Below, piece by piece: positions 7,586 through 48,242 of a stretch of 64,000 bases of DNA. The DNA lies in contig NC_015680.1 in the NCBI RefSeq assembly GCF_000215995.1, forward strand, positions 248,001 to 312,000, written 5' to 3'. Position 1 is the stretch's first letter; every line of letters starts with the position of its first letter. Under the pieces are notes generated by a model that saw only the letters and a program-made list of their open reading frames with translations, ran no database searches and was not told the origin of the DNA. A program made the position numbers and the translations under genes. Origin of the DNA: Pyrococcus yayanosii CH1 (GTDB taxonomy: Archaea > Methanobacteriota_B > Thermococci > Thermococcales > Thermococcaceae).

Positions 7586-8017
7586 TCACCTCAGCCTACC
7601 GGTGTGCTCATCACTTATCAGATGAGGGGAAGGCTCATCATCCCCTACCTTTCCATAGACCCATCCCAGGGCGAACACGAGGGCGGCGAGTCCGAAGAGC
7701 AGATAGGGTCCGAGCTCCCTGAAGTCCGTCGTTATAACGAGCTTTCGAACGATGGCCATCATACCCAGCTCGGCAACCCTTCTCATGCTGACGTGGTGCT
7801 CCTTAAGGTAAAGGGACAGGAGTTCGTAGACCTCGACGAATATTATGACGAGCATAAAGTCGTCAAGGATGGCGTTAAGATTTTCTCCCGAGATTATGGC
7901 GAAGAACATCCTGTATATAGCCATGCCTATCAAGGCCATTGTAGCCAGCTCGAGCATAACAACAATTACATCGAAAGCCGGGTCTAGGAGCCGGAACAGA
8001 GATCCTCTCTTCATCAT
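7586..8017 (-). CDS. PsiE-like integral membrane protein
   Basis: The product has 143 residues with about four hydrophobic segments (15-40, 50-67, 83-92 and 103-122). The region [19 protein letters not shown] resembles the phosphate-starvation-inducible PsiE family, whose biochemical role is unknown. Tail residues are polar and acidic. It is the first gene of a two-gene operon with fen, the stop overlapping the fen ribosome-binding site. An alternative start is the second ATG, 3 bases on. Confidence 0.75.
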
Positions 8018-17102: not shown

Positions 17103-17145
17103 CTTTAATCACCCCCAAACTTCTGCCTAACCCTACTTTTGAGCG

Positions 17146-17160
17146 GGCTTTTTAAAGGTT
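17146..17160 (-). promoter_or_regulatory. BRE/TATA promoter of EF-1alpha-S10
   Basis: Minus strand AACCTTTAAAAAGCC, preceded by GCGA, is a strong archaeal promoter core. The predicted start near 17127 leaves a leader of about 25 bases with GGGGGTGATTAAAG just before the ATG. Confidence 0.65.
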
Positions 17161-17336
17161 TCGCACCTCGGCCCCCTCGGCGGGAAACCCGCCGTAACGA
17201 GAGGGCCTCATTAGCCTCGGGGAAAGTTCAGGTGTGGGTTTAAAAAATTAACTGAAGCTCGGCGGTGACCACTTTCATCATAATTCAGTCAAGACCGATT
17301 TCCTCATCGCGAGGACCGCTTTGGAGTTGGGGATTA
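17161..17336. other. Intergenic DNA with a GC-rich inverted-repeat element
   Basis: The gap lies between divergent EF-1alpha and lipoate ligase promoters. At 17171-17208 the sequence folds into a stem: ggcccc-ctcg pairs with cgag-agggcc, with an inner GGCGGG-aaa-CCCGCC hairpin (17180-17194). It lies upstream of the EF-1alpha promoter core, and another TATA-like tract (ttaaaaaatta) is near 17239-17249. No open frame or known RNA family is recognised. Confidence 0.4.
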
Positions 17337-18986: not shown

Positions 18987-19046
18987 CCCCGGTCAGTCCG
19001 TCACTCCCTCATCACACCTCAGTTAAGGCTGAACTCATCATCCCGT
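18987..19046 (-). ncRNA. Box C/D sRNA (rRNA/tRNA 2'-O-methylation guide)
   Basis: On the minus strand, every element of an archaeal C/D guide RNA is in order. Box C is ATGATGA (19041-19035), guide 1 is GTTCAGCCTTAA (19034-19023) and D' is CTGA (19022-19019). After a 3-base spacer come C' GTGATGA (19015-19009), guide 2 GGGAGTGACGGA (19008-18997) and D CTGA (18996-18993). CGGG and CC flank the ends. A TATA box (CCTTTTAATGG, 19073-19063) lies about 25 bases upstream. The 3' end abuts the ribosome-binding site of the CDF gene, so the sRNA may be processed from that transcript. Targets were not identified. Boundaries are approximate. Confidence 0.85.
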
Positions 19047-19077: not shown

Positions 19078-19133
19078 GGCTCAGAGATCACCTCTGTCCT
19101 CATCAATCGGGTCGCCCATCATTCATCATCGCC
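19078..19133 (-). ncRNA. Second, weaker box C/D sRNA candidate
   Basis: On the minus strand, GGC starts a stem closed by GCC. Between them are C ATGATGA (19129-19123), a 12-base guide, D' CCGA (19110-19107), C' TTGATGA (19106-19100), a 15-base guide, and D CTGA (19084-19081). D' and C' each deviate by one base and guide 2 is long. No clear TATA is seen in front. The 5' part overlaps the decayed end of sfsA. It could be chance. Confidence 0.35.
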
Positions 19134-33591: not shown

Positions 33592-33655
33592 AGGTCGATG
33601 AGGAGTAAGCTGTTAGCCGAGCGGTGATGAGAGGATGGCTGGCCGAGACGCTCAC
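33592..33655 (+). ncRNA. Box C/D sRNA candidate with variant boxes
   Basis: After GGTC comes GATGA (variant C box TCGATGA, 33595-33601), a 15-base guide, then CCGA (D'), GCG, a canonical C' box GTGATGA, a 12-base guide GAGGATGGCTGG, and CCGA (D) followed by GACG, which can pair with the leading GGTC. C and D each carry one U-to-C change, so the terminal kink-turn is atypical. A TATA lies about 25 bases upstream. The 3' end touches the DUF1699 stop. Confidence 0.45.
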
Positions 33656-46123: not shown

Positions 46124-47383
46124 ATGATAAGGCTTAGGCTACCGAACTCCCGCTTCGAGGACCTCGGAGATTTCGTCCGGCTCGTGTGGAGGAAAACCCT
46201 CATAGCCGACTTTAAGAAGGGGGAGCTAGAAAGGGCCGTCCGAAGGAAGTTCAGAGTCGAGGTTAGCGTGGGTGCCGAGGATGGGGCCCTCACGGTAACA
46301 ACGGACAATCCAGATGTCGAGAGATTCATAGCCTTCTACATCCAGAGCAATCTCGGGGCAATGTTGCGGAACAGGTACACCGGGCGGAGGGTCATCTACA
46401 TTCACGAGGGCATGGACGTTCCCCTTCTCGGCTACAACGCCTTTGGCCTCATAGACAGGGGGACGAATCTCATACAGGTAAGGGGTGTGAGCGGCTGTAA
46501 CATGAGCTGCATCTTTTGCTCCGTGGATGAGGGGCCATATTCGAGGACGAGGGCGTTAGACTTCGTTGTTGACGTCGAATACCTCATGAAATGGTTCGAC
46601 TGGGTAGCAAGAGAGAAGGGGAAGGGCCTTGAAGCTCATCTGGACGCCCAAGGAGAGCCGCTCCTTTACCCCTTTATTGTGGAGCTCGTTCAGGCCCTTA
46701 GGGATCATCCTCACGTCTCAGTAATATCTATGCAGAGCAACGGCACCCTCTTGGATGATAGGTTAGTTGAAGAGCTCGCTGAGGCTGGCCTGGACAGGGT
46801 GAACCTCTCCATTCACTCCCTCAATCCAGAAAAGGCTAAGATACTCATGGGCCGGAAGGACTACGACCTTGAGCATGTCCTCGAGATGGCGGAGGCGTTG
46901 GTTAACGCGGGGATAGACGTCCTGATAGCCCCCGTCATAATATTCGGGGTGAACGACGACGAGGCTGAGGCCTTCATAGAGTTCGCCCGTAGGATTGGGG
47001 CAGGAAAACGCTGGCCGGCAATTGGCTTCCAGAACTACATACCCTACAAGTTTGGGAGAAACCCTGCCATAGCGAGGCCTATCCCATTCAAGGAATTCTA
47101 TGCGTGGCTCAGGAGGCTTGAAGAGAAGACGGGCATGAAACCTCTCGTGCTCAGACCGGAGCACTTCGGCATGCACAGAAGGCCCTTCATTCCCCTCGCG
47201 TTCCAGAGGGGGGAGGTAGTCAAGGCTGAGGTCGTCCTTCCGGGCAGGATGGAGGGTGAGATGATTGCCAAGGCAAGGAACAGGCTCATTCAGGTCATAG
47301 ATGCGAACGCCCGGGTGGGCGAGAAAATTAAGGTCAAGATAGTGAGGACAAGGCACGGGATATACGTTGGGACGAGGGCGTAA
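46124..47383 (+). CDS. Radical SAM protein with C-terminal TRAM domain (COG2100-like)
   Basis: The product has 419 residues. A 115-residue N-terminal domain precedes the radical SAM core, whose 4Fe-4S ligands are in SGCNMSCIFCS (CxxxCxxC, about 125-132). SAM-binding features are DAQGEPLLYP and MQSNGTLL; NLSIHSLNPEKAKILMG follows. The C-terminal VVKAEVVLPGRMEGEMIAKARNRLIQV ... GEKIKVKIVRTRHGIYVG is a TRAM domain, which binds RNA in related tRNA-modifying enzymes. The substrate is unknown; RNA modification is an inference from TRAM. A box C/D sRNA starts 34 bases after the stop. Confidence 0.88.
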   Translation: MIRLRLPNSRFEDLGDFVRLVWRKTLIADFKKGELERAVRRKFRVEVSVGAEDGALTVTTDNPDVERFIAFYIQSNLGAMLRNRYTGRRVIYIHEGMDVPLLGYNAFGLIDRGTNLIQVRGVSGCNMSCIFCSVDEGPYSRTRALDFVVDVEYLMKWFDWVAREKGKGLEAHLDAQGEPLLYPFIVELVQALRDHPHVSVISMQSNGTLLDDRLVEELAEAGLDRVNLSIHSLNPEKAKILMGRKDYDLEHVLEMAEALVNAGIDVLIAPVIIFGVNDDEAEAFIEFARRIGAGKRWPAIGFQNYIPYKFGRNPAIARPIPFKEFYAWLRRLEEKTGMKPLVLRPEHFGMHRRPFIPLAFQRGEVVKAEVVLPGRMEGEMIAKARNRLIQVIDANARVGEKIKVKIVRTRHGIYVGTRA

Positions 47384-47416
47384 CGCCTTTAAATCTTCCC
47401 ATTCAATAATTTTCTG

Positions 47417-47486
47417 GCGGGCTCGTGATGAGCTTTCCCTACGGCCCGAGCACGTGCAATGAGGAGTACAGCCAGGGCTGATGACC
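47417..47486 (+). ncRNA. Box C/D sRNA
   Basis: In order: C box GTGATGA (47425-47431), guide 1 GCTTTCCCTACGGC (47432-47445), D' CCGA (47446-47449), a 9-base spacer, C' ATGAGGA (47459-47465), guide 2 GTACAGCCAGGG (47466-47477), D CTGA (47478-47481). Box C and D are canonical, D' and C' differ by one base each, as is usual for internal boxes. A TATA-like CTTTAAATC at 47390-47398 lies about 25 bases before the predicted 5' end. It occupies the gap between the radical SAM and phosphoesterase genes and holds no open frame. Targets are undetermined; ends are approximate. Confidence 0.75.
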
Positions 47487-47549
47487 ATGAGGCGGACCTT
47501 CTCCTTCTATTCTATCCATCGAGGCGATTGGCGAGCTAGGTGATGTCCC

Positions 47550-48242
47550 ATGATAGCCCTAATCTCTGACATCCACTCCAACTGGGAGGCCCTCAGGGCC
47601 GTGTGGAAGGAGATAAGAGATGCCGACATGATAGTCTGCCTTGGCGACCTCGTAGGCTACGGCGCGAGCCCCAACGAGGTCGTGGAGTTTTTCAGAAGGC
47701 TGAGGGAGAGAAAAAATGTCATATGCGTTCGTGGCAATCACGACAACGCGGTAGCCTTTGGCACAGACTGGGGCTTCAATCCATACGCCCGCCAGGCCGT
47801 CAGATGGCATCAGCGCGTGATGAGCGTTGAGAACCTCGAGTTCCTGAGAGGGCTTCCCGTGAGGGCCTCCTTCACTGCCGGAAACAGGGTCTATTACGTC
47901 ATTCACGGATCTCCTAGGGCCCCCCTTGATGAGTATCTGTTTCCCTGGCTTCCAGATAGTGAGTTTAGGGCGGTGCTGGGCTTCATAAGGGAAGATGACC
48001 TTCTCGTCGGTCACACCCACGTGCCAATGCTCGTAAAGGTAGGGGATAGGAGGATAATAAACCCAGGCTCCGTCGGTCAGCCGAGGGATGGCGACTGGAG
48101 GGCGAGCTATGCCCTTCTAGATGAGGAGACTGGGGAGGTGAGCTTTTATAGGGTCGAGTATGACGTTGAAGAGGCGGCGAGGAAGATATTGGAGGCAGGT
48201 CTTCCCAGGTTCCTTGCGGAGAGGCTGTTTGAGGGCTTTTAA
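47550..48242 (+). CDS. Metallophosphoesterase (YfcE/MJ0936-like)
   Basis: This calcineurin-like phosphodiesterase has 230 residues. All five metal-binding blocks are present: ISDIHSN, LGDLVGYG, RGNHDN, VIHGSPR and VGHTHVPM, then the NPGSVGQPRDGD motif typical of the YfcE group. These enzymes hydrolyse phosphodiesters in vitro; the in vivo substrate is unknown. GGTGATGTCCC precedes the ATG. Confidence 0.93.
   Translation: MIALISDIHSNWEALRAVWKEIRDADMIVCLGDLVGYGASPNEVVEFFRRLRERKNVICVRGNHDNAVAFGTDWGFNPYARQAVRWHQRVMSVENLEFLRGLPVRASFTAGNRVYYVIHGSPRAPLDEYLFPWLPDSEFRAVLGFIREDDLLVGHTHVPMLVKVGDRRIINPGSVGQPRDGDWRASYALLDEETGEVSFYRVEYDVEEAARKILEAGLPRFLAERLFEGF

Follow-up and report, generated by a model that had tools for sequence, protein, structure and literature searches.

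Between two protein-coding genes of Pyrococcus yayanosii CH1, within a 64,000-nucleotide stretch of its genome (the window), lies what is, judged by its sequence, the P. yayanosii copy of sR19, a known box C/D sRNA (Rfam RF01142). The best explanation of its role, which we hold to be likely, is that the sR19 C/D ribonucleoprotein (RNP) guides 2′-O-methylation of 16S rRNA at G763 and U818. A cmscan search of the 64-kb window placed an RF01142 match at 47421..47483 on the forward strand, with 78.1 bits against a gathering cut-off of 45, an E-value of 2.3e-16 and coverage of model positions 1-63 of 63. Because this match is full, the RNA is not new, and its family is already known. Both family guides are present as well, in the model alignment and in an alignment of nine genomes. 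A sequence-only reading of the window had proposed a box C/D sRNA with two guides at this place and a covariance search as a check; the RF01142 match bears the proposal out.

The boxes named in that reading, and the lengths of its guides and spacer, can be read directly from the sequence where it had put them. Along positions 47416-47481, the elements follow one another on the forward strand as leader, box C, D′ guide, D′ box, spacer, C′ box, D guide and D box. The 5′ leader, GGCGGGC, occupies 47416..47422. Box C (GTGATGA, 47425..47431, inside the Rfam match) is followed by a 14-nt D′ guide (47432..47445), box D′ (47446..47449, here CCGA, and CCGA or CTGA across the genus), a 9-nt spacer (47450..47458), box C′ (ATGAGGA, 47459..47465, conserved in the genus), a 12-nt D guide (47466..47477) and box D (CTGA, 47478..47481, invariant in the genus). 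The RNA thus has boxes C, D′, C′ and D in the order of an archaeal box C/D sRNA, with guides of about 9-14 nt, and each guide is complementary to rRNA across the fifth nucleotide from its D or D′ box. A short terminal stem is usual for archaeal box C/D sRNAs, though not defining. Flanking boxes C and D, this stem has 0 pairs in seven of nine sR19 copies, and from 0 to 7 pairs, mostly at least 1, in 12 other groups.

Further RNAs recognized by Rfam lie elsewhere in the window. The box C/D sRNAs among them are sR60 (18991-19045), sR1 (19079-19133), sR44 (17257-17311) and snoPyro_CD (7588-7645), all on the reverse strand, and sR24 (33595-33648) on the forward strand; SscA (17125-17217, reverse strand) and three tRNAs are also present.

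At E<=0.001, sR19 matches occur in 27 of 94 Thermococcales genomes, 18 of them exceeding the gathering cut-off, and in none of 14 control genomes. Divided by genus (labelled g1 to g6, where g1 is Pyrococcus, the genus of the window, and g3 is presumably Thermococcus), the matches at this threshold are found in 9/9 g1, 0/3 g2, 3/61 g3, 8/13 g4, 6/7 g5 and 1/1 g6 genomes. A looser pattern for the D half of the RNA detected one further g3 copy (G028), at the same locus as the others. The alignment of the nine g1 genomes shows next to no variation in boxes and guides, in contrast to the DNA upstream of the leader, which has diverged. Conservation of the guides in relatives, which the sequence-only reading expected to be Thermococcus although the organism is a Pyrococcus, had been named beforehand as a check, with guides that vary inside conserved flanking DNA counting against the sRNA; with the guides kept and the flank diverged, the comparison does not count against it.

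The D guide is the same or nearly the same in every sR19 copy found. Its sequence, slightly altered, also recurs at another locus in eleven g3 genomes (L082, L083, L084, L085, L088-L090, L092 and L094-L096), within a different C/D-like RNA in which the D-like guide has the first position and the second half has a CGG/CCG stem and CCGA at its end. Rfam, at its cut-offs, had no match for the six of these eleven loci that were scanned. The recurrence suggests that D-site methylation may have been re-acquired or moved in g3 genomes.

The predicted targets come from pairing the guides with this organism's own 16S rRNA. The D guide forms 10 Watson-Crick pairs and one G-U with nucleotides 759-769, and the D′ guide forms 11 Watson-Crick pairs and one G-U with nucleotides 814-825. 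On this basis, the D guide is predicted to direct methylation of G763 (E. coli 808; P. abyssi G775). The D′ guide is predicted to direct methylation of U818 (E. coli 859; P. abyssi U830), an assignment held with less certainty, as the match to 16S U1469 is of similar quality. The predicted sites are 55 nt apart, in a region that we take to be helices 24 to 26, and the D-guide target is identical in 20 of 20 rRNA operons. When the guides were shuffled, rRNA was matched equally well by 7 of 2000 shuffles for the D′ guide, 8 of 2000 for the D guide and 0 of 2000 for both together. (E. coli numbers follow record L244, with a 16S of 1542 nt, since the 16S annotated at 468-1992 in record L243 is short, at 1525 nt, or 17 nt less. 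P. abyssi numbers use an offset of 12; with it, the published ac4C sites, 34 of 34, coincide with the second C of a CCG.) The available part of PMC4644070 describes double guides by at least 9 consecutive Watson-Crick pairs spanning position +5 and by two targets within 100 nt, and the sR19 duplexes have these properties. The D′ guide also has a 23S site to which the match is perfect in two genomes (G004 and G008), and at which this genome has a C at the fifth position.

Direct evidence covers the four boxes, both guides, the family to which the RNA belongs, its conservation and its complementarity to 16S rRNA. The steps of transcription, RNP binding and methylation we infer from what is established about how archaeal C/D RNPs work. 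sR19 would be transcribed from its own promoter, would bind L7Ae, Nop5 and fibrillarin, and would pair with nascent 16S rRNA at the two sites. Counted from box D or D′, the nucleotide in the fifth pair would then be methylated: G763 and U818, respectively. This paired visit probably also aids the folding of 16S helix 24 to helix 26. As far as the accessible text of PMC7005279 goes, a 3.2 Å cryo-EM structure of the P. abyssi 30S subunit has only Am373, Cm1376 and ac4Cm250 as ribose-methylated nucleotides, and neither predicted sR19 target is among its modified sites; this counts against the prediction, within the limits of that resolution. RiboMeth-seq data for P. furiosus have been deposited, according to the portion of PMC7758197 available.

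The D′ target was also followed across the order: of 94 genomes, 60 yielded the 16S site. All g1 (8/8), g4 (9/9) and g5 (4/4) genomes in which it was found have U as the target nucleotide; the 38 g3 genomes with the site have A (29) or G (9), and one g2 genome (G002) has C. Wherever a recognizable D′ guide and the 16S were both found, the target is U (15/15 genomes: eight g1, three g4 and four g5). A D′ guide of the sR19 kind is seen only in the genera with U, and in g6, for whose single genome (G093) a search for the 16S found none. In all four g3 orthologs seen (G025, G028, G038 and G040) the D′ guide is gone. It is changed in five g4 genomes (G074, G076, G077, G080 and G081), and the first four of these nevertheless keep the U, so nucleotide and guide are not strictly linked. 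This distribution is suggestive, but few independent events stand behind it. The best target for the changed g4 guides has 9 pairs including one G-U and lies outside 16S, and a search for targets of the changed g3 guides gave nothing convincing. A guide compensating for the A-type target of g3 was looked for with one pattern, which matches in 50 of 94 genomes and whose reversed control matches in many too; none was seen among the 30 loci read of the matches listed. Among these 30, box C stands in front only in the nine g1 sR19 copies, and two loci (L113 and L115) belong to the rRNA gene.

These data also bear on a competing assignment, in which sR19 is genuine but the site served by its D′ guide is 16S U1469 (E. 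coli U1512; P. abyssi U1481), alone or together with U818. Pairing is nearly equal at the two places, box C plus the D′ guide gives −31.7 kcal/mol at U1469 versus −27.1 at U818, and the U1469 site is found in all 20 rRNA operons. However, it is U818, not U1469, that the D target and the complement of the leader adjoin, and the g3 orthologs seen have no D′ guide where U818 is replaced, although all four g3 operons read have an intact U1469 site. We regard action at U1469 as improbable and retain U818 as the predicted D′ target.

The surroundings of the gene can be read in a second way. Upstream, the frame for the radical SAM protein has its stop at 47383; downstream, a calcineurin-like phosphoesterase gene runs from 47550 to 48242 on the forward strand (Metallophos_2, E 3.4e-25), so the sRNA stretch is intergenic. 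Here the sequence-only reading fared well, with one exception: its phosphoesterase is confirmed, and on the same strand no gene frame runs through the sRNA, but of its upstream ‘radical SAM-TRAM’ gene only the radical SAM part is matched by Pfam, no TRAM domain being found at E<=0.001. The single listed frame of at least 60 amino acids that overlaps sR19 (46763-47488, reverse strand) is antisense to the radical SAM gene. The TATA element that had been noted upstream is present as TTTAAAT (47388..47394, forward strand), with a distance of 27 nt from its start to the conserved TGGCGGGC; in 9/9 genus genomes a TTTTAA or TTTAAA starts 27-29 nt before TGGCGGGC. It is thus plausible that sR19 has its own promoter.

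If sR19 were instead co-transcribed with the phosphoesterase gene, it would form part of the 5′ UTR, and the locus might be mainly a kink-turn regulator through which L7Ae controls that gene, the guides being secondary. In the other genus genomes the gap between the end of box D and the ATG of the phosphoesterase gene is indeed short, from a few to about 16 nt, and PMC4247193 discusses T. kodakarensis transcripts with L7Ae-binding sites. However, sR19 has two neighbourhoods: it adjoins the phosphoesterase gene in g1, but at the g4, g5 and g3 loci read it sits between genes for a pterin-binding (DUF6513) protein and a DUF3216 protein, and hence has no fixed link to the phosphoesterase. Moreover, the guides are conserved and not the boxes alone, and about 45 extra nt precede the ATG in this genome. 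A regulatory role of this kind thus seems quite unlikely, and methylation guidance remains the preferred reading. The extra nucleotides lie between sR19 and the phosphoesterase start (47482-47549) and are absent from the 8 other genus genomes. In the g3 orthologs (L024-L026), the sRNA has no leader, and its sequence apparently overlaps with the 3′ end of the frame of the pterin-binding gene, a frame that was read for L024.

Box-like motifs are short and common, but the idea that they came together by chance in an intergenic stretch can be dismissed, since it is already refuted by the Rfam E-value, by conservation in nine genomes despite diverged flanks and by two 16S guide matches only 55 nt apart.

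The leader is the sole part of this otherwise ordinary sR19 gene that might surprise a specialist. GGCGGGC is invariant in 9/9 genus genomes, as is T47415, and in 18 genomes (nine g1, three g4 and six g5), covering both gene neighbourhoods, precisely 2 nt separate it from box C. A search for the leader pattern found 10 further places, all in g3, with no matching set of guides and boxes after them. Upstream of box C, 8 of 12 columns are invariant in sR19, versus 0-5 of 12 in the 12 other Pyrococcus C/D sRNA groups (a comparison of 80 loci, part of the matches listed, of which 67 were parsed and 13 unparsed ones dropped). We considered the leader as a general start-site motif and rejected this idea, as the 12 other groups have no such block. 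The leader complement, GCCCGCC, has a single copy per rRNA operon in each of the eight g1 genomes read and at least one in the other operons; one copy invariably lies at a place 8 nt to the 3′ side of the 11-pair D′ duplex. This place aligns to E. coli 873-880, which we take to be the 3′ strand of 16S helix 25. With the leader in the form found in the sister genomes, where it ends in UU and not UC as here, a 29-nt 16S window at this place was bound equally well by 3 of 5000 random 10-mers and 4 of 5000 shuffled leaders.

These observations could mean that sR19 is a three-point guide, in which the leader replaces the terminal stem and pairs with the 3′ strand of helix 25 beside the D′ target. 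The leader would then mimic the 5′ strand of helix 25, keep the 16S central domain open and strengthen a D′ duplex that has to form near 100 °C. We offer this idea tentatively and think it rather less probable than its failure; the leader was noticed first and its complement sought afterwards, and several findings speak against it. By energy, the leader alone has a second place of nearly equal strength beyond the 16S 3′ end (−17.9 versus −18.8 kcal/mol), and two control leaders score 6.9 and 7.2 in a wider D-target window, against 7.3 for sR19 in its D′ window. Moreover, g5 retains the leader with a weak D′ guide (10 pairs, 3 of them G-U), whereas the g6 genome (G093) retains a shortened D′ guide with no leader, and the RNA by itself folds the leader onto its own D′ guide.

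If the pairing of the leader with helix 25 is real, archaeal C/D sRNAs can use elements beyond their two guides, and the idea that C/D sRNAs act as chaperones could be tested with a small leader mutant. Apart from this, the reading adds one more correctly recognized sR19 gene, and its value lies chiefly in the fact that RNAs of this kind can escape gene annotation. A literature search under the names sR19 and Pyrococcus gave nothing on this RNA, its match concerning SRP19, and a search by terms showed, among the papers listed, no report of an archaeal counterpart of extra base-pairing.

Compared with the Rfam sR19 model, the P. yayanosii RNA agrees over the full length, in its boxes and in both guides. 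The model differs in beginning 5 nt before TGATGA, so most of the conserved leader lies outside it. With the double-guide archaeal C/D sRNAs described in the available parts of PMC4644070 and PMC7994747, sR19 shares two guides to nearby sites in one rRNA, an arrangement that the former predicts for 262 of 489 sRNAs; unlike them, sR19 is almost without a terminal stem and has an 8-nt invariant leader instead. Finally, the leader resembles the extra base-pairing of yeast snoRNAs such as snR13, as presented in the accessible text of PMC5389607, in that a stretch that is not a guide is complementary to rRNA near the target. The yeast case is eukaryotic and mutation-tested, whereas the sR19 leader is archaeal, lies 5′ of box C and is a prediction; if correct, it would be an archaeal counterpart of the yeast extra base-pairing.
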